The notes under the pieces were generated by a model, which saw nothing but the letters and a program-made list of their open reading frames with translations, did not search any database and was not told the origin of the DNA. A program made the translations under genes and the position numbers. A stretch of DNA of 64,000 nucleotides from Sycon ciliatum. Lineage: Eukaryota; Porifera; Calcarea; Leucosolenida; Sycettidae. The DNA lies in contig NC_088644.1 of the NCBI RefSeq assembly GCF_964019385.1, forward strand, positions 37,565,442 to 37,629,441, read 5' to 3'. Below, piece by piece: positions 3,316-54,719 of the stretch. How positions within the stretch are numbered: the first letter of the stretch is position 1; every line of letters begins with the position of its first letter.

Positions 3316-3714
3316 CTAGATCTGCGCCTTGCGCTTGATCTGGTTAAGTCGTGCGCAGACCTTCTTGTGCGCCGGGAAGTGCGTCTTCTGGCACTGGCGG
3401 TCGCAGTAGAGCACGACGGTGCAGCGCTGGCAGTAGTTCATCTTCACGTCCGGACTCTTGAACTTGAGGCAGTGACCGCAGCAGGTAGCCACGCGACAGA
3501 ACCTGAAGAGCACGACTAGGTCGTCGTCGGACATCGACGTCCCGTGGAACTTGGCGGCGTGCTGCACGCCGAGCAAGGTGGCGTAGGTGATGATCTCGGT
3601 GCCGTGGAACGGAATGCCCTCGATCTCCACCACCATCCACGATTCGTCGGCGCCGAGGTTGTCCTCCCAGGCCTCGATGAACGGTGTCAGCAGTTCGTGT
3701 TCATATTGCCATGC
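3316..3714 (-). CDS. Last exon: MYND zinc finger C-terminus
   Basis: 132 residues start AWQYEHELLTPFIEAWEDNL and end in a basic tail KRKAQI before the stop. The MYND finger is clear: CCGHC, then CQRC, YCDRQC, H and a final C in the spacing C-x2-C...C-x2-C-x4-C-x3-C-x7-H-x3-C. By family knowledge MYND fingers bind proline-rich PxLxP-type peptides. The acceptor TTGCTTTCCAG and phase 0 match the upstream NB-ARC exon. Starting at a methionine further upstream would read through the 29-bp minisatellite, which I reject. Confidence 0.8.
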   Translation of the reverse strand, partial: AWQYEHELLTPFIEAWEDNLGADESWMVVEIEGIPFHGTEIITYATLLGVQHAAKFHGTSMSDDDLVVLFRFCRVATCCGHCLKFKSPDVKMNYCQRCTVVLYCDRQCQKTHFPAHKKVCARLNQIKRKAQI

Positions 3715-6700
3715 CTGGAAAGCAAGCAAAGATAACAGGCAATCCGGTGAACAAACACACACAGAAACCAGCCAAAACAAACATACACACACAGGCTGAG
3801 TGCATAGTGGGGATGGAAGCAGCCAACACTGCATAATGGGGGTGGAAGCAGCCAACACTGCATAGTGGGGATGGAAGCAGTCAACCCTGCATAGTGGGGG
3901 TGGAAGCAGCCAACACTGCATAGTGGGGGTGGAAGCAGTCAACACTGCATAGTGGGGACGGAAGCAGTCAACCCTGCATAGTGGGAGTGGAAGCAGTCAA
4001 CACTGCATAGTGGGAGTGGAAGCAGTCAACACTGCATAGTGGGAGTGGAAGCAGCCAACACTGCATAGTGGGACTGAGTGGAAGCAGTCAACACTGCATA
4101 GTCAACAGGGCTCTAGAGTGCAGAGCAAATTAGTGAAATATGAAGTAAAACTGTCCCCACTCCAAAGTTTCATACAACAATGGAATCATCAGAGGGATAT
4201 CCCCTTCAGGAGTATACAAAAGATTGTTTGTGAAAGGCCATGGAACGCAGTACTCTACGATTAGTGCGGGCTTGCCCGATGTGATCCTACTTGTCAAACA
4301 AGCTGCTGCAGGGTACTGTATTCAGCTCAGCTGTTCAGAGCCAGGGTTGGGCATAGGAGCTGGCTGCTGCCACAAACTTCAATGGCATTGACTACTGTAC
4401 TGGACTGGAGTAGGAGGCAAATGTTTACAGAAATTACATCTGAAGGTCCCTGGTTTGAGTTCTAGTGCCGGTGACAGTCAATGTTTTCTTCAGACTTTTC
4501 CCTTTTCCATTCCCACAACCCGTGACTCGATGATAAGAAAATACATCTGGTGCCATTTCACCAATTTAGAGCAGGATTCCACGCATGGCATTTCTCAACC
4601 AACCTTGTTCATGAGAACGAGAATCTTGCGTTCCTCCTCATCCAGCGTTGACATTATCTCTCGGTAGTCGTCCTCGTCTTTCACAGATTGCGTGTACAGA
4701 CCGGTCTCCATGAAGATGCGGACCGGGTGGTTGCGCTCCAGGCCCAGGTGCCAGTCGGGAAGGCCCATACTCGGCCCGACGATCATGGGATCCGCCGGGA
4801 AGGCGGAGTAGCGACGGGCCCGCAGCATAGCGGTGTACAGCTGCTGGAAGGGCATGCCGTCGGTCTGCGTGCGCTGGTCGTAGAACAAGGCATACCAGTA
4901 CTTTGTCAGTTCGTTGGCGGCGTCACGTTGATCCTTGGCTAGTCTCAGCAGCAGGCCAATACGTCGCAGCTTATTGGCCATTTTCAAGAAATCCTGATGA
5001 GGCGGCATGTACTCGGTGGATTGAATGCATAGCGATACATACGCAATTAGAACTACTACACCGTCGCTGGCATACTTGGATGTTGCAATTTTCGTGGCTT
5101 CCGTAGGCTCTGGCTGTGGCTCCTTAGGCTCTTTCTCCTTGTCCTCCTGTTTCTCATCTCTTGCCGGTACGTTGAGCCTGACCATGCCCACTTTCACCGC
5201 CTCGAAATGCCTCACCAGCAAGTCGGAAATCTGCTTCCATCCGCCGGTGCACGCCAGTGTCTGCAGGTCGAGCAGCGTCAGGAGCGGCGTGTGGTGCGCT
5301 TTCAGCATGTGGTACTCGCGGTACGCCACCATGGCGGAGGTGCGGATTTCCACGCTGTCCGATTCGCCGAGCCGCATCCTGAAGCGCCGCTCCAGGTGCC
5401 GGCAGAAGTAGAGGAGCTCGTGGAACTGCATGGCCTGCTCCGGGTCCATGCCCGGCCGCCGGACAAAGTCTATGCAGCCCTGGAAGACTACGGCGAGCGT
5501 CTGCAAGGCACGTCCCCACTCCTGCAGCTGCTCTTCAAAGTAAGCCAATGTCAGGTGAGTGGCGCACACAAGATAGTGACTGCCGGAGACCGTGGAGAGG
5601 TACGCAGCGCGCCGCAGAAAGCTGTACACCGTATCGTCCGGGAAGGCCAGAGCGAAAATGTTGTACGCGGTCGGGTTGCGAACAACCTCGCTGTCACGGA
5701 TATCCGTGCAGTACCGGAACGCACGCAGCATGTGCGGATAGTCCAGCCGGAAATTATCCTGAATGGCTTCCACGTCGTCCTGGGTGAGGGGTTCCACGGT
5801 TGCAATATAGTTCAGCTCGTTGAAATAGTAGGCTGTGTATAAGCGGCGGAACACGCGGTGCTCTCTGTCCTCCAGCGAGGCAAAGCCGTGCTTGAGAGCG
5901 ATTGGCTGCATGACGTAGCGATTGAGCAGCGTGTTGTGGCTGACCAGTGAGCGTTTCTTCAGCTCTCCCATTATGTGTCTTTCCAACAGGGTCGGGCTGC
6001 TGAAGTGAAGCAGATGAACAAGGGCGCCTGTTGAAAAGGCCGCGTGGAAGATGCACATGGCTCCGAACGCTATTTTCTGCTGATCGCTGAGCATGTCGGA
6101 GGCCATCTCAGTGAGGATGTAGACCAGCTGATCGGTTTCTGTCCATGACGGGTAGTTCATGTCACTGCGGTGCTCTGCAGCATGCTCAAGCACCTGTGTC
6201 ATGGTCCATTCCGGATGGTACTTTGCCAGTGACACCAGCAAGTGGATGGCCAGTGGGCAACCGGAGCTGAACTTGGCTACTTCGCGCGTCTCACTTTTGC
6301 TCAGGCATGGCGCCAGCGTGCGCATCAGCTTGTAGGATATCGCGGGCTCCAGCGCTGGCACCTCCATTTCCACAAGGTCTCCCTCCATGGTCTGGCAGCA
6401 TGTCAGAATGATACGCACCGTGTTGTGGTAGTCCAGGATCCTTTCAAGCATCTCCGCTACGGAGTAGTCTGAGTCACTGAGCTGTGCGGTGTTGTTGCTG
6501 ACCGAGTAGACACAGTCCTCTAGGTCATCCAGTATCAGCACCGGGTTGCCTTCTAGCACGCTGATTTCCTCCTCCAGGGTCTTCATACTATTGCCAGTGC
6601 TGTTCGGTGAGATGATGTGCACGATACGTCGCACGGCGACCGGACACGTGATGCATCCGCGCAGCGGCACGAAATGCACGTAGTTGTCCTCGATCTCGGC

Positions 6701-6916
6701 CAGCTTGCGTGCCACCGCAATGGCTATGCTACTCTTTCCCATGCCGTTGGAGCCTCTCAGGGCCAGAACACGCTTCTCGGTCTCCTCGCTCTGCAGCATG
6801 TTGTTTAGGGTGGTGATCGCCTGCTCGACCAGCTCATCACGCCCTGAGAATGGCTGGCTCAGCTCCGGGAACTTGTGATCGCGGGCTTCCCGCTCTGCAG
6901 CTGACACACCAACACA

Positions 6917-6978
<62 letters not shown>

Positions 6979-7412
6979 ATGTACCATATATACGCCCGTT
7001 GCAAGAGAAGCACGCAAATCTGCAAGTGAACTGGATGTGCACCCACAGATTTTCTCTTATAGCAACGATAGCGGACAAGATCTGAATGAGAAGGATCAAG
7101 ACTAGCGCCAGATAACTGTCCAATCCACACAACCCGCGAAGCCATGGGAAACGACCACCAATGCATACCTGGTCTACACCACATGGAATACATCGGCATA
7201 GAACGGCCAAGACAGTTACCTAAGCACACCCTACACTTGCTGGGGCAACCAGTATAGACAGCATGCTGCTTTGATAGAAGCAGACACTAGATGCACTGGT
7301 ACCTTGAAGTGAAATTGGAGTTACTTTACCAAACAGCCTCGGCTACTGAGTACTGGGACCCCCCCCCCCCCCCACACACAAAACACACACACACACACAC
7401 CACACGCACGCG

Positions 7413-7451
<39 letters not shown>

Positions 7452-7951
7452 GCACGCCTGGATACACACAGGACACACAGGACACTGACACACAAAAACA
7501 TGGACATGCATGTACATACAAGTGCACATACAATGCATGTGCACACACAATGCAGGTGCATACACAATCCATGTGTACACACAATGTATGTGCATACACA
7601 ATGCATGTGCACACACAGAGCATGTGCATATACAGTGCACAACACGCAAACCAGTGAGACAAGAGGGCTCTTTCAAGTACAGGTATGTGAGAGAGCACTG
7701 TGCAGTAGCAGAGAAGGATTTGTCCCAAAAACGGCCGACTTCGTTATGGAGAAATATTGCTGCTACTCACCCCTTTCTTCTTCGGCTTTCTTCTTTGCTT
7801 TCTCATCTGCAGCTTTCTTCTCCTCATCCTTTAGCTAGATGAAGAGACAGGGAACAGGTAAAAGTGGAACCAGGTTGAAGCAGCTGTGATAACGAACTAA
7901 GCACAATTCACGACATTTGTTTCCAGCATAGTGAGTGAGTTAGAGTTAGAG

Positions 7952-8000
<49 letters not shown>

Positions 8001-10022
8001 TAGATAGATAGAGAGAGGGAGAGAGAGAGAGAGAGAGAGAGAAGGAAATTGAGAGAGAGAGAGAGAGAGAAAAGAGAGGTATGCATTCCTGGTCTAGAAT
8101 TAAACACATCAAACACCTACATGTATGTCAACACTTAAGCGCTTGAGATGATATCTGAACTTGTTGCCGCTCGACCAAATCAAAATTCTTCAAATGCATA
8201 ATGTTATCTCAAGTCAGAAGAACATATTTGACGTAGCAAAGCATCCGAAAATGTGAGAACATGAACCATTGGTTAGAGCATCGCTGGTCTAGCGAAGGTC
8301 TCTCAGGTTCGAGCACTAATGGTGACCATCAACTTTTTCTTTAGACGTCGTCTTCCCTTTTCAGTACCTCAGACTTATGGATATTAAATTAAAGAGTCAT
8401 TCGTTTACCTTTCTCGCAAATTTGAACAGATGGTGGTGGACTTCTCGATAGCGATCACCAAAGCTTTTAAGGATATCAATGAAAAGCTTGTATCCGGATG
8501 GACCTGTCTTGCGAATCCAACGATACAGTACATTCATCTCACGTCCCGATTCAAACATCGGAAGCATTTTCAACCAATCTTCATCGGAAATCAGTTCCTT
8601 CTCGACACAACGCGATCCAAATTCCACGATGTCAATTCGATTCTGAAGATAGTTGATGTTGGGTCGAACAATCTAATCGGACAAACCGCACGCAAACCAA
8701 CAGCATAACCACCCAAGCATGTGAGCACATATGGAGACACACACACACATACATGTACGAGTATTCACGCCAACAGATACACAGACACACAATAAATTCA
8801 CCATCTACATGGATCAAAAAGTATATTATCGTGTCCGTTCCCGAAGGGAACTCACGACGGTCGCTAACACCCGGTAAACCCTAGCGGCAGATGCAGCGCC
8901 TAACGGTAGGGATGAGTGGATAAGTCTCACAACCACTGGTACAAGTGCCGAGAAACCCCATTAGCCGCAATCTACAAGGATAGGTGTTGCGTAACTTATA
9001 TTCTGATTACGTTCTGATAATTGACCTTACGTGAAGCGCGTTAACACCCCTTGCCCTACTGCTACTACCAATAACACACTGCCTCGCAAGATTCTATTAC
9101 TTGACATACTCCGAGAGCCAAACACTAAATTGTTCCTGTCGTTTGCACAACTTCACTCACCGTTTTCCACTCTGACTTGGGTGCCTCAGCCTCTCCCTCA
9201 TCTGCTTTCTTCTTTTTCCGATTTCTAGGCTCCAAAATATCAGCAGGTGGTACGATGTCGACGTCGGCCGCTATCAATTTCATTAAATCCTCACCGGCGT
9301 CAAATTTTAAATCATCAAAGTCTTCCCTCACTATGCTTGTACTTGCTGGAAGTGCTTTCAACTCATTCATGTCAATTTTGCCACCTACAAGCAACAACAC
9401 AGCAGCAGCAACTTGACAGTGAGAAGCATACCTTGAAAATCCTGGGAGAAGAAATTATGTGGGCTTGGGCGGCTAGGCTGTCAATAACACGCTCACCAAC
9501 ACAGTGAAACACACACACGCACGCATACACATGCACACACGCATACACATGCACACACGCATACACATGCACACCACACACACGCACGCGGAGCTGACAA
9601 GCTCGTTCCCATAACCCTGGAAAACACTTTTGCAGAGTTATGGGAACAAACTTGCCAGCTCCGCGTGCGTGCGCGCGCGCACGCACGCACACACACATAC
9701 ACACACACAGTATTTCATGTCACAAGAACCAGCGGCAACGGCAACTTACAGGTTATTCGGAGTTTCTTCATTACAAACGTCTTCAATGACGGCTGCTCTT
9801 GTATGATACAGCGGTATAACGTGTCGATGTGCGGTGGCTTCTTGTGCAAAAGACCAAGCATGAAGCGCACGGCAATCTTTTTCCCATCAGCGGCACCGTG
9901 AAGTTTCCGGATCTGTTCTGCCTCCTGCCCTGAAATGCCGCCGGAAAGGAATAGCAGATCTAGGACTTTGCTCGCGTCAAGGTGCTTCACGAGAAATGGC
10001 CACATGCTCGTAAGGGAATCCA
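3316..10022 (-). CDS. CARD-CARD-NB-ARC-MYND protein (NLR/apoptosome-like STAND NTPase)
   Basis: At least six minus-strand exons are inferred: 10022-9750, 9384-9161, 8642-8409, about 7834-7771, 6900-4604 and 3714-3316. Every junction has AG acceptor and GT donor sites and keeps frame (phases 1, 0, 0, 1, 0), so I join them as one gene. About 1160 residues are visible, and the first exon with the start codon was not found. Order of parts: CARD-like helical domain, charged linker, second CARD-like domain, Lys/Glu-rich linker, NB-ARC NTPase, winged-helix and helical-repeat region, C-terminal MYND zinc finger. By family knowledge, CARD plus NB-ARC proteins are ATP-dependent oligomerising switches of innate immunity or cell death in the cytosol. 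A MYND finger where LRR or WD40 sensors usually sit is unusual and would suggest recruitment of peptide partners. Function is inferred only. Confidence 0.75.
3808..4105. repeat. 29-bp minisatellite, about 10 copies, intronic
   Basis: The unit (GCATAGTGGG, then GGTGGAAGCA, then GCCAACACT) repeats about ten times with G/A, C/T and AT/GT variants, and one unit carries a short ACTGA insertion. It lies in the last intron of the CARD/NB-ARC/MYND gene. There are no unique spacers, so it is not a CRISPR array. Confidence 0.95.
4440..4515 (+). repeat. tRNA-like SINE fragment, copy 1
   Basis: GGTTTGAGTTCTAGTGCCGG and the following GACAGTCAATGTTTTCTTCAG...CTTTTCCCTTTTC match 8320-8360, where the equivalent is GGTTCGAGCACTAATGG. 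The first part resembles a pol III B box. It sits in the last intron of the CARD/NB-ARC/MYND gene. Confidence 0.5.
4604..6900 (-). CDS. Exon: NB-ARC NTPase and helical-repeat region
   Basis: About 766 codons sit in a single exon. An N-terminal FSGRDELVEQAI segment precedes a Walker A loop (RGSNGMGKSSIAIA), a Walker B strand with acidic end (PVLILDDLEDC), a VRIILTCC sensor-like strand and a SSGCPLAIHLL motif equivalent to the GLPL motif of NB-ARC proteins. A winged-helix-like segment (LKKRSLVSHNTLLNRY) follows. The remaining roughly 450 residues are helical, with TPR-like segments such as ATHLTLAYFEEQLQEWGRAL and an acidic/basic linker DEKQEDKEKEPKEP. The acceptor lies right after a long TG tract. 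The donor AAG|GTTGGT is less canonical than the others. Confidence 0.8.
6905..6977. repeat. (CA)n tract abutting a splice acceptor
   Basis: On the coding (minus) strand this is a (TG)n tract that ends about five bases before the TGTCAG acceptor of the NB-ARC exon, taking the place of a normal pyrimidine tract. By general knowledge UG-repeat RNA is bound by factors such as CELF and TDP-43, so it could affect splicing. Confidence 0.85.
7361..7456. repeat. C-run and CA/CG microsatellite
   Basis: A pure C run (about 7361-7373) is followed by CA repeats with a CGCGCG interruption and more CA. It is intronic in the CARD/NB-ARC/MYND gene. A degenerate repeat with ATGCATGTGCACACACA-like units continues to about 7640. 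Confidence 0.9.
7771..7834 (-). CDS. Short exon: Lys/Glu-rich linker
   Basis: About 21 residues rich in Asp, Glu, Lys and Ala (DEEKKAADEKAKKKAEEER) are probably helical or coiled. Two acceptors are possible (start 7834 or 7828) and both keep phase. The donor GGG|GTGAGT is strong and leaves phase 1, which the next exon's CT start completes. Confidence 0.5.
7951..8072. repeat. (GA)n microsatellite
   Basis: A GA-rich tract with GATA and AAAG interruptions, intronic in the CARD/NB-ARC/MYND gene. Confidence 0.95.
8268..8365 (+). repeat. tRNA-like SINE fragment, copy 2
   Basis: GGTTAGAGCATCGCTGG resembles a pol III A box and GGTTCGAGCAC a B box, about 40 bases apart as in a tRNA. The downstream sequence is shared with 4440-4515. 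There is no convincing acceptor stem or CCA-ready 3' end, so this is a tRNA-derived repeat rather than a tRNA gene. Confidence 0.5.
8409..8642 (-). CDS. Exon: second CARD-like domain
   Basis: The exon holds 78 codons. Core pieces are VEKELISDEDWLKML, NVLYRWIRKTGPSGYKLF and IDILKSFGDRYREVHHHLF. The run LYRWIRKTGPSGYKLFIDIL follows the CARD helix 4-turn-helix 5 pattern in which an LL..RG(P) turn precedes F..F...L. It enters and leaves in phase 0. The adjacent intron carries a tRNA-like SINE fragment within about 40 bases of the donor. Confidence 0.65.
8817..8985 (-). repeat. SINE-like dispersed repeat, truncated copy
   Basis: It matches the 3' part of copies at 10480-10775 (opposite strand) and 47080-47372 (same strand). 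Shared landmarks are the hairpin GTTCCCGAAGGGAAC, CTAGCGGCAGATGCAGCGCC and ACAAGTGCCGA. This copy ends before the tRNA-like head, so it is 5'-truncated, as is usual for SINEs. Confidence 0.65.
9161..9384 (-). CDS. Exon: charged linker between the two CARD-like domains
   Basis: About 75 residues begin CGKIDMNELKALPAS and end in a basic then acidic tract around NRKKKKADEGEAEAPKSEW. No domain is recognised and it is probably a flexible linker. The acceptor is TGCTTGTAG and the donor ACG|GTGAGT. Both phases match the neighbouring exons, which is the main support for including it. Confidence 0.6.
9508..9705. repeat. CA/CG microsatellites flanking a hairpin
   Basis: CA repeats with GCATACACATG units (about 9508-9592) and GCGC/CACA repeats (about 9663-9710) surround an inverted repeat. 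Its arms share GCGGAGCTG, CCCATAAC and their complements (about 9588-9625 and 9630-9668). It lies in an intron of the CARD/NB-ARC/MYND gene and could extrude as a hairpin. Confidence 0.8.
9750..10022 (-). CDS. Exon: first CARD-like domain
   Basis: This exon encodes about 90 residues predicted as six helices, with core pieces LTSMWPFLVKHLD, VLDLLFLSGGIS, EQIRKLHG, AVRFMLGLLHKK, DTLYRCII and FVMKKLR. The helix spacing and the LL...GP-like turn before helix 5 fit the CARD branch of the death fold. The acceptor is TTTTCTCTGCAG; the donor is T|GTAAGT with phase 1, matching the next exon. A second open frame across the acceptor adds a hydrophobic run, which I treat as intron read-through. A DED or DEATH domain is less likely but not excluded. 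Confidence 0.6.
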
Positions 10023-10479
10023 CTGCAGAGAAAACATGAGTTGAAAACAACACACGTCATGTTGAGGAGAGAACCATGCGAGTCCAGGGAAGTGAATGTC
10101 CGAGATGGTCACATGACGTCAGCCATGTGACGACCAGCGGACGCAGTTTTTGATTTTTCCGGCCATAGCCGCACAGCCGTTCATACTTGTGTGTATGATA
10201 TGGTGGCTACTCATGACCCCCTCAGCATTACATCATACCCGTTGGTGGTCACAGAGTTGCTCCAAACCATGGCCTGGTCAACCGGACCGGTTCTGCCCAC
10301 CCTACACGCTGGTTCCACTGTTCACACGTCATGATAACTGTCAACACAAAGTTGGTCACTTGAAAGAGATATGAAACCACTCTACTTCCAATGTACTGTG
10401 TGTCCAAAGTCAATTGAGTGGCATAGCTTAATACAGGGGCCTCCCAGAGCACTTCAGCATGTTTTAACCAGTGCAGTGG

Positions 10480-10775
10480 GCACAGTGGGTTGGTCAAAGA
10501 CCATGATTGAGATACGAGAGGTACCTGGTTCAAGTCCTGCCTGGGAGCGTCTTTTCCATCTGTGCTGCTACCCACAGTCAACTGGGAACTTGTGGCCAGG
10601 CACAATAGGGTACATGGGAGCAGCTAATGGGGTCTTTCTTGGCACTTGTGCCCGTGGTTATGAGACTTATCCACTCACCCCCACCGTTAGGCACTGCATG
10701 TGCCGCTAGGGTTATCGAAGCGTTAGCGGCCGTCGTAAGTTCCCTTCGGGAACGGACACGATAACTTACTCTTTT
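10480..10775 (+). repeat. SINE-like dispersed repeat, fullest copy
   Basis: The head has a tRNA-like segment with GGTACCTGGTTCAAGTCC (B-box-like). The tail carries the hairpin GTTCCCTTCGGGAACGGACA and ends in a T run. A near full-length copy is at 47080-47372 on the minus strand and a truncated copy at 8817-8985. I infer a pol III-transcribed SINE; the A box is not clear. Confidence 0.6.
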
Positions 10776-10777
10776 TT

Positions 10778-12262
10778 TAACTCCGAGTTTCACGCTTAGT
10801 GCGTTAACGGGGAAGTTAAGGCAAAAATTAAAATTTCACCAGTTGTAGTCTTCGGGGTGCTGAGTCGAATGGTCTTGGTCCGAGAAAGCTGAGACGCTCC
10901 CTTCCTACTTGAATCCCAATCGAACTCGCGCACTTCAACCGAAACTGGGTGACTGCGCCCTACTAGATGAGGATTTGTATGCAAAATGTCACTAAAAGCG
11001 CCGTTTCGTTCTTATAAAAGCACGGATGACCGCGATTGGCCCATATGTTGTAGTCTTTTGGACGCTGAGTCGACTGGTTTTGGTCCGAAAAGGCTGCGAT
11101 TAGGGCTGAAACGATCATTCAATAACTCCTAACGATCAACCAATATCATTAACGATCGATATATTGGTTTTATCGATTCTTGTCAGCTCTATCGAACATG
11201 AAATACTAGTACTCAAGTAGAGAATTTCATGTTGTTTCTAGAGCGAAGAATCTTGTCATCACCCTCTGGCAACTTTTCTCATCTCCGAATTCTCCCACAA
11301 ATGAACCGAAAAGGCAAAGTCTTCTCTCCCGATCTCTTTCAAAGCCACAAATCAATTTTACTGCGCTTGAAAGTAGATGGTTGCACTCGTATCCACTATC
11401 GGATGGAGTGCAAGGGCTAGAAGAGTGCAAGGGCTAGAAGAGTGCAAGGGCTAGAACATTGTCACTGTTATGCATGCATAAAAAATCGTTAGCACTCGTT
11501 TTGAACAATAACGATTATCGATTGCACTCTTAACGATCGATATGCGAGTTATCGGTATAATTGTTTCAGCCCTAGCTGCGATGCAGCGTTCCTCCTTTTT
11601 TCCCAATCGAACATGGTTGAACAAGCGGTCACGTGCTCCTGCGTACACCAGTCAGCTGGTCACCGTGCCTGCAGGGTACAACTTACTAGCCTGTTTGACC
11701 TTTTTTGGGTGCAGTCCTGTTACTCGAGTTGAACTCGAGTTGAACCTTGGTGTGAAAGTTGTCGCCTGCCGGCGTGGTGACCAGGTGATTTGGGCACCCA
11801 GGAGCACGTGGCCGCTTGTTCAACCATGTTCGATTGGGAATAAAGGAGGAACGCTGCATCACAGCCTTTTCGGACCAAAACCAGTCGACTCAGCGTCCAA
11901 AAGACTACAACATATGGGCCAATCGCGGTCATCCGTGCTTTTATATGAACGAAACGGCGCTTTTAGTGACATTTTGCATACAAATCCTCATCTAGTAGGG
12001 CGCAGTCACCCAGTTTCGGTGGAAGTGCGCGAGTTCGATTGGGATTCAAGTAGGAAGGGAGCGTCTCAGCTTTCTCGGACCAAGACCATTCGACTCAGCA
12101 CCCCGAAGACTGGTGAAATTTTAATTTTTGCCTTAACTTCCCCTTTAAACTCGGAGTTAAACACTTTTTTCGTCCTCTTACTTGTATTATTGTTTGACCT
12201 AGCTCTGCCTCTCGGATATTGATCACTCTTGGACAGCCTGGAACCTCTCTGTTTTACAGGGT
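10778..12262. mobile_element. Large foldback element interrupted by a MITE
   Basis: Left arm 10778-11092 plus 11575-11641 is the reverse complement, with scattered mismatches, of right arm about 11799-12160. Arms are about 360-390 bases around a roughly 160-base loop. Matching blocks include the starts CTCCGAGTTT/AAACTCGGAG and TGGTTGAACAAGCGG with its complement. The outer right flank (12195-12258) is shared with the small palindrome at 1912-2138. No transposase is encoded; the open frame across it simply follows the palindrome. The left arm was later split by the hAT-type MITE at 11101-11574. Confidence 0.75.
11101..11574. mobile_element. hAT-type MITE with 8-bp target duplication
   Basis: The ends are inverted: TAGGGCTGAAACGAT at the left and ...AATTGTTTCAGCCCTA at the right. 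An exact 8-bp direct repeat, GCTGCGAT, flanks it (11093-11100 and 11575-11582). The 8-bp duplication and TAGGG-type ends are those of the hAT superfamily. Inside is a 17-bp unit (GAGTGCAAGGGCTAGAA) repeated about three times near 11406-11455. It codes for nothing, so it depends on a transposase elsewhere. Confidence 0.88.
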
Positions 12263-12378
12263 ATCTTAGACCAAAGTTTCACAGAAGTCGAGAATAGGAA
12301 AGAGTAGTACTGTACAGAAGCAGTGATTTCTTATCGATTTCGGCTACTGAGTATGTGTTTATTTTCAGTCCTGACTGC

Positions 12379-13740
12379 TCAGTGTTTCTTACTCTGCATG
12401 CTGTTGATGTGGTGCTGCTCGCCGACAATGGATGCCCTCTTTCTCAGCTTTGCAATGCTTCTCTTTTCCTCGTCAGAGTTATTCTCATCGGTGAACTCTG
12501 CCGCGTACGGGCTGTATTCCTCCACCTCCACATCCTCGTCATCGCCGTCGTAATCCTCGCCGCGCACGGCATCATAGTACGCGCTGCCCGAGCTGTCCTC
12601 GTCATCCGAATCATCATCGCAATAGAAGTCATCTTGGCCCTCGCCTGACTGCCACTCGTCCTGCGTGGCAGCCGGGGCACCGACCACCTCCTTCATGTAC
12701 GACGCCACGTTCAACTCCTGAGGTATGGGCGCGTTGTACACCCTCGGTCCTAGATGCCCTCCTCCGCTCAGAAGCGGGTACTGTGACTTCTCGCCCCCGG
12801 CTTGCTGGCTCTTGCGCTCATTCTGCTTGGCGCGGGCACGCACCTCTTCCTCTCCCTCTGTGTCGCTGGATGACAGTTCTCTGATCTGCGATGGAAGATC
12901 AGCAGAAGCCGTCGCGTGGGCAAAATACTCATCATCATCGGGCAGCGGACCAAGCGGATGTCCAATCGGATACTTGAAGCGGTCCTCAAAATGCCCTCTT
13001 TCGAACTCGTCAGCAAAATCTAGGTCCGGTACATCACCGAGATCATCCACAAAGCTAGCGGAAGTGGCAGTAGGCGCAGCAGCAGCAGCAGCAGCAGCAG
13101 CATCATCATCATGCAGAATAGGAGTCTCCGTGAATTCCAGAACGGTTGGCTGTGCTGTAGCGTTGGCATCCGGAGGAACAGGAGGCGATGGTGAGTGACC
13201 GGCAGTTGCCTGCGGCTGCAACATAGCATCACCTTGATCATCACCCTGCACGCTGTCTGCTGGACTTCCACCAGCCATCGGTAGTATCAACTCAACCTGC
13301 GAACTCTGTTCAGCATCATCCAGAAACATCTGTTCAGATGCAGCCGACTCATTAGGAATTTCAGCCACATCGTGCACCGGACCTGACAAGCCAGCCGCGC
13401 CTTCTGCCAGTTCTGGTAAATCATATGAATCTAGACCATCTAGTGCATCCAGATCGTTTCCTGGTGGAGCTTGGCTAGTTAAATCCAACACCTGATCTTG
13501 GTCAAGACCTTCACCTGTTGAAATCGCTAAGTTTCGTTCATCCTGCTTGTCACTGGCCACTGTAAATTCTCCCTCTGAACTATATTGTTTCAGCATATCA
13601 AGACCACCTGAAGACGAGGGAACGTTTTGAGAAGCCATTATATCGTTGTGAACATCAAAACATTCGGCTTCCAAACTATTTCGCTCCTCGGGTTCAAAAC
13701 TAGCGGCCGTTTCATCTGCGAGATCATCGTGTGTCGACAT
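12379..13740 (-). CDS. Acidic, probably disordered protein of unknown function
   Basis: An uninterrupted 453-codon frame with start context TCTCATGTC. I do not recognise the family. The N-terminal two thirds are rich in Glu, Asp, Ser and Ala, with a nine-alanine run coded by GCA/GCT repeats (near 13078-13100). A more ordered segment around FEDRFKYPIGHPLGPLPDD may be the conserved core. A very acidic tail (YCDDDSDDEDSSGS, YDGDDEDVEVEEYS) precedes a basic end KLRKRASIVGEQ. No signal peptide or membrane helix is visible. It lies upstream of the CARD/NB-ARC/MYND gene on the same strand but has its own stop, so I treat it as separate. Length, composition and lack of frame breaks suggest a real gene. 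Confidence 0.6.
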   Translation of the reverse strand: MSTHDDLADETAASFEPEERNSLEAECFDVHNDIMASQNVPSSSGGLDMLKQYSSEGEFTVASDKQDERNLAISTGEGLDQDQVLDLTSQAPPGNDLDALDGLDSYDLPELAEGAAGLSGPVHDVAEIPNESAASEQMFLDDAEQSSQVELILPMAGGSPADSVQGDDQGDAMLQPQATAGHSPSPPVPPDANATAQPTVLEFTETPILHDDDAAAAAAAAAPTATSASFVDDLGDVPDLDFADEFERGHFEDRFKYPIGHPLGPLPDDDEYFAHATASADLPSQIRELSSSDTEGEEEVRARAKQNERKSQQAGGEKSQYPLLSGGGHLGPRVYNAPIPQELNVASYMKEVVGAPAATQDEWQSGEGQDDFYCDDDSDDEDSSGSAYYDAVRGEDYDGDDEDVEVEEYSPYAAEFTDENNSDEEKRSIAKLRKRASIVGEQHHINSMQSKKH

Positions 13741-14710
13741 GAGAATTGCCTAAAAAAGACAAACACACACGAACATGAACTTCAAAACGTACGCCACCTC
13801 ACAAACAATTGTATCTCATGACTCAAGAACCTTTTTCAAAACAGCACAAACAGCCACAAGGCTATAATTATTATTTGAAAAATTGTGTTTGTTCAGACGA
13901 TCGGTACGTCCACGGCCGGCGCCACGAGACTTTCGAGAGCAGGAGTCGTAAAATACCACTCTCTGCTCGGGAGCAATCCTGTTCCAGCTACCGCAGCCGG
14001 CGCACCACAACGGGGCCGTGGATTGACGGCGCAAGAATGATGAAGATATGCCCATTTTTCTTGGGCTTTCACGTCACCACTGGTCACATCCCCTTCATCA
14101 TCCGGATACTTCTCAGAATAACATCGGCTCCTGTCATCATGACTGTGCGTCTACTCACTCAGTACTCTGTGGAGTGTGGTTGAGTTCACTCGAGTAGATC
14201 TACTCGGCACGACGGCAGGACCCGGAGCTCCGGAGAAGCCCTGGTTGAGTGACTGAGTGACTGGTCACTTGCTCAGTGGTGTCATTCATCCACTCACTGA
14301 TATTGATATTGATAATAATTATATCTAGCACTCGCTAGTACTAGTAGTAGTAGTACTGTAGTACAATTATTTAGTACAATGTCAGAACATAATACTTGTG
14401 AAGCCACGCTATGGAGTTAGGCTAGTCGCAAATTTCATTCGCGTCTGGTGAAGATCACAATCCGTACAGATACCGACATCTTCATAAACAGCAGTGGCCA
14501 TTGTATTGGTCTTGCTTGGTGCACGAGTAAGAGTAGATTGTTATATTTTGCAATCTCGCAAAGAATTCTGGCTTTGCGGAGCAGTATTTTGCTGATAATA
14601 GATCAGCCGCTACAAATTAATTCAGAAAACAATAGGCCGCCAGAATCCAATATGGCGTAAAAAAACCTGGATTCAATCATCGAGAGCTTCTCCAGTGAAC
14701 TGGCTACACG
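13741..14710. promoter_or_regulatory. Divergent intergenic region
   Basis: About 970 bases lie between the start of the minus-strand acidic protein gene and the start of the plus-strand transporter gene, so promoters for both should be here. I see no reliable TATA box. A short tract rich in CTAGTACTAGTAGTAG occurs near 14330-14360. Confidence 0.35.
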
Positions 14711-16027
14711 ATGCCGGAACGAAATGGTTATATTCGCAGGCTTCCTGTGAGTGTGTTTGGCGTGTGCCTGGGCACGGCTGGACAGGTACCGATGTGGAAT
14801 AGCCTTGCGAATAGCAAGGCAATGAAGTGCTTCGACATACCGCAGGTAGTTGCACAAGTGTTCTGGGTGATAGCCGTTGTCCTGCTGACCATTCTGGCGG
14901 CGCTCTATTGCTGGAAGATTGTGCTGCACCCACGCTCAGTGCGCACGGAGTTCCACTGCTACTACCAGAGTAACTTCTTCACACTGCCGTTCCTTTGCCT
15001 GATCATCCTGTCAGCATCATTGCCACCGGCATGGTTTGCGGGCGAGCCATCACCGCTGCTTCTACTGCTGCTAGTGCCGCTGGTAGCCATTCATGTCTAC
15101 CTGTATGGCGAATGGATGTATGGAGTCAATCGGTCGCTGCGACTGGCAAACCCTGCGTTTCAGCTGGCGGTTGTGGGCAACTTCTTCGGCTCCCTGCTGG
15201 CATCGAATGCCGGTCAGAGTGAGCTGGCCATCGGTCTGTTCACGGTTGGCATTATGTACCTGTCTCTCACGCTGGCGTGTCTGCATGCGGCCAACACGCG
15301 TATAAAACGCGACTGTACCGGCGCTATCCTGCAGGAGCAGACGAGACGTCGCCTGGTCAAACTGGACGAGGACCTGCACCCTCTGCTTGAGAGCACACCG
15401 GGCCGAGTGCAGCACAACCCATGGTCACCAATGTCGGAGATCTGGGCTCTGCCACCGGGCCTGCACCCGACGATATTCCTGTGCCTTGCACCACCGTCCG
15501 TGGCAGCACTGGCCTGGGCAAACATAAACGACGGAGTATGTGACAGGCTGTGTAAATCCCTGGTCAGCATTCCCATCTTCTTCCTGCTCACGATGTCCAT
15601 CCACCTGCATCGGTTCTTCCGACGCACGCCCTTCTCCCTGGCCTCGTGGGCGTTCACGTTTCCCTCGGCGGCACTCGGAACGGCCAGTATCAAGTACGCC
15701 GAGTATGCCTCTCCCGGGTTTTCATACTTGTCGTTCGCGCTGTGCTGTGTAGCGATAACGTTCTGGACAATGGCAACTCTGCTCAGTCTCTACATGCTCG
15801 GTACACGCGGTCTCACGGCATTCCTGTCACCCGGATCGGAGAAGACAAGCGACGTACATTTCCTGGTGGGCGGTGCGGCGGCACGACTGCAATGCGAAGA
15901 GGGCAGTTTGGAGGTGGACAGGTCAGTGGTACACCGTGTACACGATGTTGAGCAGATCGGGCAATGTGGCGCTCCGTTCCTCGATCCACGAGACAAAACC
16001 CATCAAGCATGTGAAACGTCCATATAA
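14711..16027 (+). CDS. SLAC1/TehA-family (TDT) anion or dicarboxylate transporter
   Basis: 438 codons, intronless, with about ten hydrophobic helices. The N-terminal RRLPVSVFGVCLGTAGQVP matches the first helix of the tellurite-resistance/dicarboxylate transporter family (plant SLAC1, bacterial TehA, yeast Mae1). HPRSVRTEFHCYYQSNFFT fits the conserved loop and helix that follow, and ASWAFTFPSAALGTASIKYA fits the late W.Y.FP...A motif. By family knowledge these proteins form trimeric plasma-membrane channels or carriers for small anions or C4-dicarboxylates; the substrate here is unknown. The C-terminal 60 residues are hydrophilic and lack family resemblance. The family is sparse in animals, so transfer from bacteria or fungi is possible but not shown. 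Confidence 0.8.
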   Translation: MPERNGYIRRLPVSVFGVCLGTAGQVPMWNSLANSKAMKCFDIPQVVAQVFWVIAVVLLTILAALYCWKIVLHPRSVRTEFHCYYQSNFFTLPFLCLIILSASLPPAWFAGEPSPLLLLLLVPLVAIHVYLYGEWMYGVNRSLRLANPAFQLAVVGNFFGSLLASNAGQSELAIGLFTVGIMYLSLTLACLHAANTRIKRDCTGAILQEQTRRRLVKLDEDLHPLLESTPGRVQHNPWSPMSEIWALPPGLHPTIFLCLAPPSVAALAWANINDGVCDRLCKSLVSIPIFFLLTMSIHLHRFFRRTPFSLASWAFTFPSAALGTASIKYAEYASPGFSYLSFALCCVAITFWTMATLLSLYMLGTRGLTAFLSPGSEKTSDVHFLVGGAAARLQCEEGSLEVDRSVVHRVHDVEQIGQCGAPFLDPRDKTHQACETSI

Positions 16028-17638: not shown

Positions 17639-18937
17639 CTAGCACACTGGTCCATCATAAGCCTCATCAAGTCCTATGTCCTTCCCCTCCGTCCAGATCT
17701 GTGCTTGTGTGCATGCCATTGCCGGGTCGGTCCAGAACGGATCGGTAGCCGGCAGGCCCAGCTGTACTAGCCCCAGACATATCAAGTAGAGTGCACCCGT
17801 GTCGCCGTATGGATTCATCATTCCGGGCTGATGGCCGTTCACGCCGGCCGATAACCATTCTCCAACGAAGTTGTCCGGATTGGACATGAACCTGCTGATG
17901 AGACCAGTCAATGCAGACCGTACCTTCCCCACTGGTAGTTTCACTGGCAAATTGTGCTGCAGAGCCAGCTGACCGAGAACCTGGAACGCACCGAAGCGAT
18001 AGTGCTGTGATCTACCGACCAGGAAATAGGTACCATCGGCATGAATCATCCTCTCCTGCACAACTGCCCAACGCTGCATTCTGCGCAGCAGGCAAGCATG
18101 CTTCTCGCCCAGAGGGTTGCCCTTTGCTGCACACACGCTGGCTACATCAACCAGCATGGGATGCATGACAAAGCCGTTGTACTGGTCGAAGTGAAAGTGC
18201 GGGCCATCCGCGTATGCCCCGTCACCCGCGTACCAGGATTCCTGAAGTCCAAACGCCCGGCGTATGAATGTGGTGTTGCTGCTCAAGTTGTGCAGCCACA
18301 AGCCAGCCTCCACCATTGACGGAAAGTTCACATGGTTATTGAAGGTGGTGTCATCCAGCGTAAGTGCCAAAGGAAGATTTGTGGCTATAGCCTCCACCAG
18401 ATCACGGGGAAACGTTTGAAATAGCTTTGGCATTCGCAACATGGTGTGCCCAATGTACGCAGCCTCCACTATGACTGCTGTACACCCGTCCCAGTGAACA
18501 TAATCTCCACAGGTTCTGTTCAGGAAGATGTTGTGGAAAGCCTTCCGTGCCAAGGTGATGTACTCGTCGCGCATTTGCCCTTCTGACGAGCCGTCCACTG
18601 GCAATTCCAACCAAGGAGCAATGCCAGCCATTGTTCTGCCAAACGCTGCTGACACACGATACGATGTGCAGCTGATGGCTGTTGGGGGGTGTCCGTTGAG
18701 CTGCTTAGCCATCAGGCTGTTCAGGGTGCAAGTACTAGCATGTTCCAGCACTGGCCGGGCTATCTTGTTCAATGCCTGCAAATGCACTAGACGCTCACTG
18801 CCAACCCCTTGAGGTGATTTGTTATCCCGTGGGAATTTAGAATAGATGCCCAAGGCTTGCACTGCATTGAATAATATCGCGGCAATACACAGGATGACCC
18901 ATACTGCAGAGTCAGTCTTGCTTAGAGCCATTTCCAC
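17639..18937 (-). CDS. Secreted DUF2264 protein, copy 1
   Basis: 432 codons without introns. The first roughly 30 residues hold a hydrophobic stretch (VWVILCIAAILFNAVQALG) that should act as a signal peptide or anchor. DUF2264 landmarks follow in order: RPVLEHASTCTLN, GIAPWLELP, AYIGHTMLRMP, a YAGDGAYADGPHFHFDQYN glycine-aspartate block, MHPMLVDVASVC, ADGTYFLVGRSQHYRFGAF, SAGVNGHQPGMMNPYGDTGA and LGLPATDPFW. Its C-terminus ends AQIWTEGKDIGLDEAYDGPVC, shared by all four copies. The family is poorly characterised; an alpha/alpha-barrel glycan-active enzyme is an inference. It is head-to-head with copy 2. Here YADGP and ACTQAQ differ from the YGDG and SCTQAQ of the others. Confidence 0.82.
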   Translation of the reverse strand: MEMALSKTDSAVWVILCIAAILFNAVQALGIYSKFPRDNKSPQGVGSERLVHLQALNKIARPVLEHASTCTLNSLMAKQLNGHPPTAISCTSYRVSAAFGRTMAGIAPWLELPVDGSSEGQMRDEYITLARKAFHNIFLNRTCGDYVHWDGCTAVIVEAAYIGHTMLRMPKLFQTFPRDLVEAIATNLPLALTLDDTTFNNHVNFPSMVEAGLWLHNLSSNTTFIRRAFGLQESWYAGDGAYADGPHFHFDQYNGFVMHPMLVDVASVCAAKGNPLGEKHACLLRRMQRWAVVQERMIHADGTYFLVGRSQHYRFGAFQVLGQLALQHNLPVKLPVGKVRSALTGLISRFMSNPDNFVGEWLSAGVNGHQPGMMNPYGDTGALYLICLGLVQLGLPATDPFWTDPAMACTQAQIWTEGKDIGLDEAYDGPVC

Positions 18938-19793
18938 GGTCTATGTAGAGAGCAGAATGATAGAATTGTGAACTACTGCAAGTACTGGATGAACTTGAAT
19001 GTGGGTGTGTTGGCGGTAGTGGCCTCTGTGGCGATGAAGCTGTTGCGAGTGCATGGGATGTATATCTACTATGTACTAACTGTGATGGTCATAGGCATTG
19101 GACCACTGAGGGCAGGCGACATCCACTTTTCCAAGATGTATCAGCAATTTCACATCCAGCAGCAGGGCGGTCCTCTGTGAACAGGCATTATTCTCTCCGA
19201 CATGCCTTTAGCATAACTACAGTCAGTTTGTATGCCATCCATTAATGATTTGACTCCATTCATTCGTCACCTGTACGAAATCACTGTCAACTGTTCTAGT
19301 TTTAGTTGGATACTCAGTTACATGCACTTGCTTACAATAATTGGTATGTGTTTATTACCAAAAATGGCCTATGAAAACTTGGACGTGATAACTTATTTTG
19401 GCAACAAACTAATCGCTTGGTTTTTGGTCGGAATGTCATCGATGAAGATATAGATAGACTTCATGCAGACACCCTCATGATTCTACATCTTTTGCACTAA
19501 ATAATAATGTTCAAGCAGACTGTTGCCATCGTGATCGGGTGCATGGAGAAACTGATAAAATCATAGACTCAGCTCTTGCTCGGAACGTGATCACGTGCCC
19601 CGCCCTACTGTTCTCAGGCCAGACACAGATGAGAACCTCCTTTGGCTTTGATGTCAATGATGACTTGGACGAAAGAAAATCTCCGCCCGATACGATGAAA
19701 TGAACATATTTTGATTTGGGGATAATTGTAGTTCAACAAGGTTCGAATACTGTACTGTACTCGAAGACGCGTTTCGTCGCTCGTCCACCCTGC
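18938..19793. promoter_or_regulatory. Shared upstream region of divergent DUF2264 copies 1 and 2
   Basis: About 855 bases separate the two start codons, so this is a likely bidirectional promoter region. It contains an ACGTGATCACGTG palindrome near 19586-19598 (E-box/CACGTG-like half sites). No other element can be assigned. Confidence 0.35.
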
Positions 19794-21071
19794 ATGACTG
19801 CAATGGAGCGAGATAAATCGATCTACATCCTGTCATTGGCTTTGCTATGTGTTGCTTGCGGCGTCCGGGGTGAGGATAGGTTCGTGAAAGATGGTGGCGA
19901 CACGGGAGCTGCAGATCGCCAGGTGCATCTTGTAGCTCTTGAGCAGATATCACGCCCGGTACTGGGGAATTTGAGCTTGTGCACTCTCAATATAAACATG
20001 CTCAATCAAACTAAGGACGGAGCGTACCGGACCTGCCCCGATTACCGTGTCGCTGCAGCATTTGCCAGACTAATCTCCGGCATTGCTCCGTGGCTGGAGT
20101 TGGGCGCGTCGGACAACAGCACAGACGAAGGAAAGCTTCGAGCGGAGTTCATCGACTTGACGAACAAGGCATTCTACAACGTGTTCGTGAATCAGACATG
20201 TCGGGATTTCGTTCACTGGAACCAGTGTCACGGTATGGTCGTGGAGGCTGCATTCGTCGGCCATAGCCTCCTGCGTATGCCTAAAACCGTACAGGCAATG
20301 AGCTCTGAGCTGAAGGAAGCAATGGCCAGTAACTTACAATTGACTTTCACATTCTCCCCACCAACATGGAACAACTGGTGCAATTTCCCGTCAATCCTTC
20401 AAGCTGGGCTATGGTACCATAACCTTAGCAATGGTACGAGCTACATTTACACGGCTATCAAGCTGCAGGAAGAATGGTACAAAGGCGATGGAGTGTACGG
20501 TGACGGGCCACATCTTCATTTCGACCAGTACAACAGCTTCGTCATGCACCCGGAGCTGGTCGATGCAGTTGCGGTGTGCAAGGGGAAGGGCGACGCGATG
20601 GGTGCAAAGTACGAGTGCCTGCTGAAGCGCATGCAACGCTGGGCCGTGATTCAGGAGAGGATGATACATCCGGACGGGTCGTACATCATCTTCGGTCGCT
20701 CAGAGTTCTATCGGTTCGGTGCATTCCACGCCCTATGTCAGCTTGCCCTTCAGAATCTTCTACCCAGCAATCTGCCACGCGGTAAAGTGCGCACAGCGAT
20801 GACGGCCGTCATCGGCCGCTTTCTGTCCAATCCGAATAACTTCATCAACGGATGGTTGGCGTCAGGAGTTAATGGCCACCAGCTTGGTATGATGAACTCG
20901 TACGGGGACACCGGCGCATCATATCTGATAAGCTTTGGCCTACTGCAGCTGGGCTTGCCAGCTACTGATCCATTCTGGACAGAACCAGCAGTGAGCTGTA
21001 CACAGGCTCAGATCTGGGTTGAAGGGAAAGATATTGGATTGGATGAAGCGTATGATGGGCCAGTGTGTTGA
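19794..21071 (+). CDS. Secreted DUF2264 protein, copy 2
   Basis: An intronless frame. It is open from 19716, but I choose the methionine at 19794 (or 19803) because the next residues form a typical signal peptide (SIYILSLALLCVACGVRG). Conserved blocks are RPVLGNLSLCTLN, GIAPWLELG, FVGHSLLRMP, YKGDGVYGDGPHLHFDQYN, IFGRSEFYRFGAF and LGLPATDPFW, ending in the shared GLDEAYDGPVC tail. It differs from copies 3 and 4 at GHQLGMMNSYGD, where the others have GHQPGMMNPYGD, so loss or shift of activity is possible. Several N-x-S/T sites suggest glycosylation in the secretory pathway. It is tail-to-tail with copy 3. Confidence 0.82.
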   Translation: MTAMERDKSIYILSLALLCVACGVRGEDRFVKDGGDTGAADRQVHLVALEQISRPVLGNLSLCTLNINMLNQTKDGAYRTCPDYRVAAAFARLISGIAPWLELGASDNSTDEGKLRAEFIDLTNKAFYNVFVNQTCRDFVHWNQCHGMVVEAAFVGHSLLRMPKTVQAMSSELKEAMASNLQLTFTFSPPTWNNWCNFPSILQAGLWYHNLSNGTSYIYTAIKLQEEWYKGDGVYGDGPHLHFDQYNSFVMHPELVDAVAVCKGKGDAMGAKYECLLKRMQRWAVIQERMIHPDGSYIIFGRSEFYRFGAFHALCQLALQNLLPSNLPRGKVRTAMTAVIGRFLSNPNNFINGWLASGVNGHQLGMMNSYGDTGASYLISFGLLQLGLPATDPFWTEPAVSCTQAQIWVEGKDIGLDEAYDGPVC

Positions 21072-22097: not shown

Positions 22098-23360
22098 TCA
22101 GCAAGCTGGCCCATCATACGCCTCATCCAATCCAATATCTTTCCCTTCAACCCAGATCTGAGCCTGTGTACAGCTCACTGCTGGTTCTGTCCAGAATGGA
22201 TCAGCAGCCGGTAGACCCAGCTGCAGTAGACCTAGGCTAACCAGGTACAGTGCACCGCTATCACCATACGGATTCATCATTCCTGGTTGATGACCATTCA
22301 CTCCAGCAGATAGCCAACCATCAATGAAATTATCCGTATTAGACAGGAACCGCTTGATCACAGCAGTCAGTGCCATCCGAACTTGTCCACGGGGAAGACT
22401 CGATGGTAACAGATTCTGCAATGCTAGCTGAGACAGCGCCTGGAATGCACCAAAGCGATAGTGTTCACTGCGTCCAACGATCAGATATGACCCGTCTGGA
22501 TGGATCATCCTCTCTTGGACCACAGCCCAGCGTTGCATACGTTTCAGCAAGCACTCATACTTTGCACCCATCGCATCACCTTTCATCTTGCATACACGCA
22601 CTGCATCGACCAGTTGAGGGTGCATCACATAGCTGTTGTACTGATCAAAGTGGAAATGTATTCCATCGCCGTACGCACCATCACCTTTGTACCATTCTTC
22701 CTGCAACTTGATTGCTTCGTAAATGTAATTTGTTTCATTTGTCAAGTTGTGATACCACAGACCGGCTTGCAAGATGGAAGGAAAGTTGCACCAGTTATTG
22801 CTTGTGGATTCATGAAATTTGAACGTTAGCTGAGTGTTTGTTGCTATGGCTTTCTTCATTTCTTGAGGCCACTTCATGACGAGCGTTGGCATTCGTAAAA
22901 GTGCATGTCCTATATAGGAAGCCTCCACGATGTTGGCACTGCAACCATCCCATTTGATAAAGTCGGCGCAGGATTCATTTACAAATGCGCTGAAGAACGC
23001 TTTCTCAGTCAGCATAATGAACTCGGTTCGCAGTTGTCCTTCAGCTGTCGTATTATCACCACCTAACTCCAGCCATGGGGCGATGCCCGCCACAAGCCTT
23101 CCCAAAGCTGAGGCGATCCTGTAGGAAGGGCAAAGGATTACGGACGGTGCTCCAGGTCTTGTCTGGTTGATCATTTTGCTCTGAAGCGAGCAGGTACTGA
23201 GGGCTTCCAGCACTGGCCTAGCAATCTTCTCCAAAGCATTCAACTGCGCTGCGCGATCGTCAGCTCCACTCTGCGGCTGAATGGTCGGCGTTGTTCCATC
23301 TGCAATGGCGAAGAGCAGCGCGGGTAAAGCCAGTAGGCGCAGCATTGGCCCTAACGCCAT
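22098..23360 (-). CDS. Secreted DUF2264 protein, copy 3
   Basis: 420 codons, intronless, with a clean signal peptide (MLRLLALPALLFAIADG). DUF2264 blocks: RPVLEALSTCSLQ, GIAPWLELGG, YIGHALLRMP, YKGDGAYGDGIHFHFDQYN, MHPQLVDAVRVC, IVGRSEHYRFGAFQALSQLA, WLSAGVNGHQPGMMNPYGDS and LGLPAADPFW. From about 22807 down to 22098 the DNA is nearly identical to copy 4 (I counted roughly a dozen mismatches by eye over about 700 bases). The 5' part is visibly more diverged at about 70 percent protein identity. The last residue motif is GPAC rather than GPVC. Confidence 0.83.
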   Translation of the reverse strand: MALGPMLRLLALPALLFAIADGTTPTIQPQSGADDRAAQLNALEKIARPVLEALSTCSLQSKMINQTRPGAPSVILCPSYRIASALGRLVAGIAPWLELGGDNTTAEGQLRTEFIMLTEKAFFSAFVNESCADFIKWDGCSANIVEASYIGHALLRMPTLVMKWPQEMKKAIATNTQLTFKFHESTSNNWCNFPSILQAGLWYHNLTNETNYIYEAIKLQEEWYKGDGAYGDGIHFHFDQYNSYVMHPQLVDAVRVCKMKGDAMGAKYECLLKRMQRWAVVQERMIHPDGSYLIVGRSEHYRFGAFQALSQLALQNLLPSSLPRGQVRMALTAVIKRFLSNTDNFIDGWLSAGVNGHQPGMMNPYGDSGALYLVSLGLLQLGLPAADPFWTEPAVSCTQAQIWVEGKDIGLDEAYDGPAC

Positions 23361-34210: not shown

Positions 34211-34283
34211 TTTTCTTACCTGTCGTAGTAGTATTGTAGGCGGTAGGTCAGATCACCCGTTGTGACCTGACAATCCCGGCCCG

Positions 34284-38967: not shown

Positions 38968-43580
<4,613 letters not shown>

Positions 43581-53781: not shown

Positions 53782-54719
53782 GCCCTTGCAGACGAGCTAC
53801 CAACACACGCCATGAAAGCAGCCTTCCATGAGGCATACGCCTGCTTATCGCCGCCGAAGACTGGGATCTGTATAGCCTTCAGTTGCTTGAAAATTTCATC
53901 TGATGGCTGCTTGACAGGTGGAGGCTGAGACACAGCACGCTGGTGGCTGGCGGACACACCTGCTCCTGGCAATGCTGAAAAGGCACCAATGCCCATGGCC
54001 TGATGACTTGAGGCTACCTGTGGTGGCCCACTGGCCTGGGTGTACAGATAGTTGGCGGACTGATATGGCAGAGATGATGTAGGGTGTAGTCCTGACACAG
54101 GAGCCTGAGTACTACTGCCCTGCTGGCCTGGACTCTTCGCGACTTGAAGTTGAGGGGCCTTGGTCTCACTCACTCTAGTATATGCACTGGACACACATAC
54201 AGCACTCCGTGTTGGCACAGCAGGCTGTAGTACAGGCAAGGCAGGGCTTCTTTCACGCTCTGACCTCCTACTCCCAGCTTCCATTGGTGGCCTTGTTCTA
54301 GCCCCAAGCTCTGCCTCTCTGTTACTACTGCCGGAGACACTTGTGGTCACAACCACTTCATCACTGTCTTCTACTCTTGCCTGGTTCTCCTGAACCAGCG
54401 CCACGCCATCACCAGGCTCATCCCGATCCTGGGAGCCTTCACTTCTGCCCAGCGATATCACGCTCAGTGGACTTCCTGGCTCTTCCACTGGTGCCTGGGC
54501 ATACTGATGATACGCTGGCCTGTCTGGGTGGCTGTTCCGTGCAGCCGTCCACGCTGGCTGGTGTTCTAGGAACTCCTGATACAGCCTTGTGACCTCCTTC
54601 ATCTCTTTCTCCGCTTCCTCCATCTCATCGGTCACTTTAGCCACTGCGAGCGCATCGTTCATGCCGCCAGCCCACTCGAGTACGTCCATGAACACACCGT
54701 TCAGGGCATCCTCGATCAT
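53748..54719 (-). CDS. BEL/Pao gag, central frame
   Basis: 323 codons. It starts with an acidic helical segment (IEDALNGVFMDVLEWAGG, EMEEAEKEMKEVTRLYQEFL), then a Pro/Ser/Gln-rich spacer, then KQLKAIQIPVFGGDKQAYAS, the start of the DUF1759-type gag region. It stops at 53748-53750 where the pol frame takes over in a different phase, with about 30 bases of overlap. A programmed frameshift or a recent mutation are both possible. Confidence 0.8.
   Translation of the reverse strand: MIEDALNGVFMDVLEWAGGMNDALAVAKVTDEMEEAEKEMKEVTRLYQEFLEHQPAWTAARNSHPDRPAYHQYAQAPVEEPGSPLSVISLGRSEGSQDRDEPGDGVALVQENQARVEDSDEVVVTTSVSGSSNREAELGARTRPPMEAGSRRSERERSPALPVLQPAVPTRSAVCVSSAYTRVSETKAPQLQVAKSPGQQGSSTQAPVSGLHPTSSLPYQSANYLYTQASGPPQVASSHQAMGIGAFSALPGAGVSASHQRAVSQPPPVKQPSDEIFKQLKAIQIPVFGGDKQAYASWKAAFMACVGSSSARADLYCCTSGSI

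Follow-up and report, generated by a model that had tools for sequence, protein, structure and literature searches.

The CARD, NB-ARC and MYND gene of the window

The window, a stretch of 64,000 nucleotides corresponding to C2:37565442-37629441 in the Sycon ciliatum assembly of 538 Mb and 313 contigs, contains on its minus strand a gene that runs from 10022 down to a stop codon at 3316. This gene is real: its six exons, proposed in an earlier note on the same DNA, have GT/AG borders and join in consistent phase to encode a protein of 1162 residues, in which a CARD, a linker, an alpha-helical exon, an NB-ARC domain, an unnamed helical region and a MYND finger follow one another. The terminal exon 6 (3316-3714), which also holds the stop codon, starts in phase 0 behind the acceptor TTTCCAG and contains the MYND zinc finger (3355-3480) with all eight Cys/His ligands. 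Pfam zf-MYND matched the joined protein with 33.8 bits (cut-off 22.7) and exon 6 alone with 37.8 bits. Exon 5 (4604-6900) comprises the NB-ARC domain and the part behind it, followed by an uncharacterised region (approximately 4604-5773). Its NB-ARC match reached 27.5 bits in the joined protein and 28.5 bits for the exon alone (cut-off 23.5), and both Walker A (GSNGMGKSS, 6728-6754) and Walker B (LILDDLED, 6515-6538) could be read from the sequence. Pfam NACHT scored lower than NB-ARC, with 22.5 bits against a cut-off of 26.7. The Thr-Thr/Ser-Arg motif that has a role behind Walker B in STAND and NB-ARC proteins was not found, as the window protein reads ILTCC where the related genes described below read LLTSR.

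With regard to the N-terminal half, exon 1 (9750-10022) contains a CARD (Pfam match approximately 9775-9993) that scored 20.4 bits (E 5e-4), just under the cut-off of 23.9. The structure prediction that the earlier note had suggested for exons 1 and 3 gave a fold model for exon 1 that was similar to solved CARDs when folds were compared. Exon 2 (9161-9384) is a charged, lysine-rich linker in which the Pfam scan gave no domain, and exon 4 (7771-7834) is a short Lys/Glu/Ala-rich linker, entered in phase 0 and left in phase 1. Exon 3 (8409-8642), claimed to be a second CARD, has five predicted helices, but when scanned alone it reached only 12.4 bits against Pfam CARD (E 0.17), the CARD profile of the related genes gave no support, and the fold searches, made with a one-sequence model and compared without a CARD set, gave no firm CARD assignment. 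Of the two CARDs claimed earlier, the first thus has firm support and the second does not. In the PDB, sequence searches that started from exon 1, from exon 3 or from the NB-ARC exon returned nothing beyond weak unrelated matches. Nor were the helical repeats named in the earlier note recovered between the NB-ARC domain and the MYND finger, where the Pfam scan listed no TPR, LRR or WD40 family. In other respects its description was borne out: Walker A, Walker B and the full MYND ligand set are all present, the profile search that it had suggested placed MYND and NB-ARC above and CARD just below the cut-off, and an NLR/apoptosome-like CARD and NB-ARC switch with MYND as its last exon is upheld by these scores, by the fold of the first CARD and by the recurrence of the arrangement elsewhere in the genome (see below). 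The intron between the NB-ARC and MYND exons contains at 3795-4100 imperfect tandem copies, by eye GTGGAAGCAGTCAACACTGCATAGTGGG-like, with a unit of about 30 bases.

Exon 1 follows the acceptor CTGCAG at 10023-10028, starts in phase 1 and ends in phase 1 at the donor GTAAGT. The ATG-to-donor candidates listed by script over 10023-12400 included no convincing first exon. Since the CARD exons of the related genes have their own ATG (MPDSVRYN, MSDRIRLN), the sequence suggests that the protein may begin with the first CARD, as M-D-S-L-T-S, the ATG being split over the junction. This would require an upstream exon ending in A. An acidic open reading frame (ORF) on the same strand (12393-13749), with no Pfam family above cut-off, would supply such an A too; it ends beside a phase-1 donor-like A/GTAAGA that is compatible with exon 1, and may be either the 5' part of the gene or a separate gene.

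A tandem family of related genes on another chromosome

The window gene belongs to a large tandem family, the other members of which lie on another chromosome, C1; it has diverged from them and is apparently present in a single copy. It should be underlined that the genome searches score the best candidates only, and all counts given for the family are therefore lower bounds. When used as query, the NB-ARC exon found itself and at least 58 further places with 21-28% identity, all on C1 (56 at 11.26-12.86 Mb and two at 13.74-13.75 Mb) and all free of internal stops; no second copy of the window gene was found. A genome-wide CARD scan (E up to 0.1) gave at least 111 places, 63 of which are in the C1 array region. 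In the edge gene L045, the exon downstream of the NB-ARC ORF bears a MYND-like finger, and this exon in turn matched at least 59 places including itself (56 in the main array, two at 13.74-13.75 Mb and one at C1:72.41 Mb). One of these matches is a 37-residue piece and six of the 59 cross stop codons; of these six, L065 and L069 were fetched, and both have their stops after the finger. The match at C1:72411417-72411773 is a MYND-like terminal exon of the array type that stands alone, at a distance of about 58 Mb from the array and with no NB-ARC match listed nearby.

The three kinds of exon were then paired by strand and order, allowing a MYND exon up to 8 kb downstream and a CARD up to 15 kb upstream of each NB-ARC place. 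A MYND exon was present at 54 of the 58 places, a CARD at 53 and both at 50, and in no case did a MYND exon on the wrong strand lie within the 8 kb downstream. The distance from the NB-ARC match end to the MYND exon is near-constant (median 1627 bases). The CARD-to-NB-ARC distances, on the other hand, reach 12.4 kb, and a CARD could thus be paired with the wrong gene. Ten of the 63 CARDs of the array region remained without a partner, as did five of the 59 MYND exons. Exon phases also agree with those of the window gene: phase 1 is found at the end of the CARD exon and the start of the NB-ARC exon (L043, L044 and L045), and phase 0 at the end of the NB-ARC exon (L044 and L045) and the start of the MYND exon (L045 and L047). 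The window gene has three more exons between CARD and NB-ARC, and the array genes were compared at the corresponding borders.

As judged by the array profile, which matched the window NB-ARC exon with 68.7 bits over residues 9-375 and not further, this part of exon 5 (approximately 5774-6874) is homologous to the array genes. The array domain was named NB-ARC because of this homology and because the P-loop and Walker B are kept; a genome-wide NB-ARC profile search listed two other places, neither of them the window or the array. The switch motif differs, being TCC in the window gene and T-S-R in the array. The terminal exon of the window gene aligns with the array exons over the finger and about 30 residues before it. 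Its score of 21.0 bits was above all full shuffles (1000 made, 980 scored), and one of 1000 shuffles of the N-terminal part only reached this value. However, among seven other MYND proteins of the genome put through the same comparison, L003 scored 18.8 (the rest 10.4 or less), so that kinship of the terminal exon is not provable from its sequence alone. An alignment of 14 array fingers, taken from the 59 places, shows ligands one to five and the closing His and Cys in every sequence, whereas the sixth ligand is Arg in 12 and Cys in two; seven of the eight ligands are thus present in 12 array fingers, and all eight in two as in the window finger. In Pfam, the finger of L045 scored 10.1 bits (cut-off 22.7), and its CARD passed with 29.3 bits.

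Selection pattern, proposed working and alternative explanations

The ratio of nonsynonymous to synonymous change (dN/dS) was obtained by a simple Nei-Gojobori count without statistical test, and conversion between copies could distort it. For the NB-ARC exon, 17 of the 19 array-family ORFs were used (73-95% pairwise identity; two edge genes left out). The nucleotide-binding windows gave ratios of 0.25-0.44, and the helical region that follows the switch gave 0.64-1.41. In the CARD the ratio was 0.18 (six sequences, two from unpaired CARDs); a value of 1.00 was obtained for the first part of the MYND exon, and of 0.27 for its finger (12 sequences, including the solitary copy at C1:72.41 Mb). 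Constraint on CARD, switch and finger, with faster change between them, is what would be anticipated for receptors whose signalling modules stay constant. Since the finger is conserved in the family and the helical region before it is variable, the sequences make the MYND finger look less like the sensor than like a module with a constant role in signalling or regulation.

We consider it reasonably probable that the window gene and its relatives encode STAND-type switch proteins of the order CARD, NB-ARC, helical region and MYND, forming a class of intracellular receptor that works as follows. At rest, the protein would be closed, with nucleotide bound to NB-ARC. Sensing of a ligand or a disturbed host protein would fall to the helical region, which varies in the array, and nucleotide exchange would then lead to opening and oligomerisation. 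The clustered CARDs could then recruit CARD-bearing partners or adaptors, for example the CARD-caspases of the genome, with cell death or an immune signal as the outcome. Known MYND proteins use their finger to bind peptides of partners, and the finger conserved in the array may do likewise, thereby tethering, restraining or directing the oligomer. Candidate partners for a CARD-caspase output exist, as the genome contains 14 caspase-family matches (pieces, not genes), some with CARD exons nearby (C4:39.04-39.06 Mb and C1:88.885-88.891 Mb). Kinship with a clustered family points to an internal immune receptor of a sort that is still little known.

Some observations weigh against this reading. 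The linker before the switch changes as fast as the helical region (dN/dS 0.65-1.48; the open frames there include intron sequence), and relaxed constraint may also account for the fast helical region. Moreover, of three array ORFs scanned against Pfam NB-ARC, L044 (19.1 bits) and L045 (16.7 bits) fell under the cut-off of 23.5 and L043 was not listed. The speed of the linker and the low NB-ARC scores of the array ORFs lowered our confidence slightly.

CARD plus NB-ARC is also the core of APAF-1 and CED-4, and the gene might instead be a divergent paralogue of these, an apoptosome protein of intrinsic apoptosis rather than immunity, with another sensor replacing WD40. We regard this as unlikely, although placozoans are described as having several APAF-1 paralogues, some of them within NB-ARC gene clusters (PMC6321704, as far as consulted). 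Pfam gave no WD40 match in the window gene, and a housekeeping apoptosome would hardly be expected to form a large tandem array with fast-changing middles. C5:33.959-33.961 Mb holds a better candidate, the parts seen there being a CARD (52.4 bits) and the beginning of an NB-ARC domain (34.8 bits over 49 residues); for this reason, the window gene was judged unlikely to be APAF-1 itself. Somewhat less likely still is that the window gene, instead of sensing, serves the array receptors as a constant partner (helper or adaptor). Its apparent single copy, its eight finger ligands compared to seven in 12 of the 14 array fingers, its TCC in place of T-S-R and its extra helical exon would all fit such a role, yet single copy and divergence are expected for any old paralogue, and the proposal is drawn from sequence features. 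We give the same low probability to a sensor/helper network in which more than 50 tandem members would be fast-evolving sensors and the window gene their single-copy conserved partner with intact MYND, with CARD and MYND as two constant outputs.

The peptide binding of known MYND fingers, together with the constraint on the finger, could also point to a regulator in transcription or ubiquitin-type signalling, like other MYND proteins, in which the CARD aids assembly only and which has no link to death or immunity. This appears improbable, as the constraint on the CARD and a tandem expansion with a fast middle suit receptors better. Least probable is that the gene model is an artefact that joins CARD, NB-ARC and MYND exons from neighbouring genes. 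The model was read from genomic sequence, the NB-ARC donor is weak, the introns contain repeats and some of the CARD distances in the array are long. Nevertheless, the same order and strand recur at 50 of the 58 places and the phases are equal in the loci checked, and we rejected the separate-genes explanation on these grounds. For the MYND exon in particular, the acceptor is in phase and no Met occurs before residue 27; that this exon forms a gene of its own is improbable, given that it recurs behind NB-ARC on the same strand, in phase 0 and at a near-constant distance.

Relation to known systems and other genes

The window gene may be compared with the systems that it resembles most. Like APAF-1 and CED-4, it has an N-terminal CARD followed by NB-ARC, from which a nucleotide switch and a CARD platform would be expected; unlike APAF-1, it continues into a C-terminal helical region and MYND. 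Animal NLRs with NACHT and LRR, such as the NLRC class in the sponge Dysidea avara (PMC12909245, as far as consulted), share with the family an N-terminal CARD, a STAND switch and clustered expansions, but the window gene has NB-ARC rather than NACHT, no LRR match and a terminal MYND. The placozoan NB-ARC proteins without LRR resemble the family in their CARD or death-like N terminus and clustered genes; in the main text of the paper describing them, C-terminal WD40 is named and the word MYND does not occur (PMC6321704). TPR-MYND-like proteins also have a helical region followed by a MYND finger, but CARD and NB-ARC are not seen in them; L003 and L004 of this genome are TPR-like by eye.

The earlier note had presented a terminal MYND finger as a combination not known to it among described NLRs, and the gene as a candidate for an undescribed system. 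Searches of open-licence papers, judged by title, found no animal receptor that joins NB-ARC, NACHT or NLR with MYND, and a search for NB-ARC, MYND and invertebrate turned up a fungal paper only. Within the genome, where at least 50 of the 58 related NB-ARC places have both a CARD and a MYND exon, the combination is not an isolated oddity. The sponge NLR survey defines NLRs by NACHT, and the word MYND is absent from its main text (PMC12909245). Because of this definition, and because array members fall under the Pfam NB-ARC and MYND cut-offs, an NB-ARC-like family with a MYND end would escape such a survey.

On the best reading, the CARD-NB-ARC-MYND class stands beside the APAF-1-like and NACHT genes of the genome, and its array is one of the large receptor-like arrays there, in which CARD, switch and finger are constant and the parts between them variable. 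The family offers a direct route to asking which part of an animal switch receptor without LRR serves as its sensor, and whether an immune switch has incorporated the peptide binding of MYND. NACHT genes are abundant, with at least 102 matches (the number scored and listed out of 452 first-look candidates), and form large arrays at C5:36.5-38.5 Mb, C12:21.3-22.9 Mb and C14:0.2-2.8 Mb. An unplaced STAND protein is encoded at C2:35.93 Mb (L051, 5171-8821) by an open frame of 1216 residues with an NB-ARC match of 32.2 bits and long unmatched flanks.

Elsewhere in the window, four long single open frames belong to the DUF2264 family (17642-18940 (-), 19704-21068 (+), 22101-23366 (-) and 25028-26317 (-); Pfam 229-240 bits), which Pfam describes as conserved in bacteria. 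An old horizontal transfer followed by local expansion is a possible origin of this cluster in an animal genome. A long open frame at 14699-16024 (+) matches the SLAC1/voltage-dependent anion channel family (92.7 bits), and those at 34266-38558, 41072-42376, 48724-53796, 57138-57932 and 63308-64000 resemble, by eye, retrotransposon polyproteins or reverse transcriptases.

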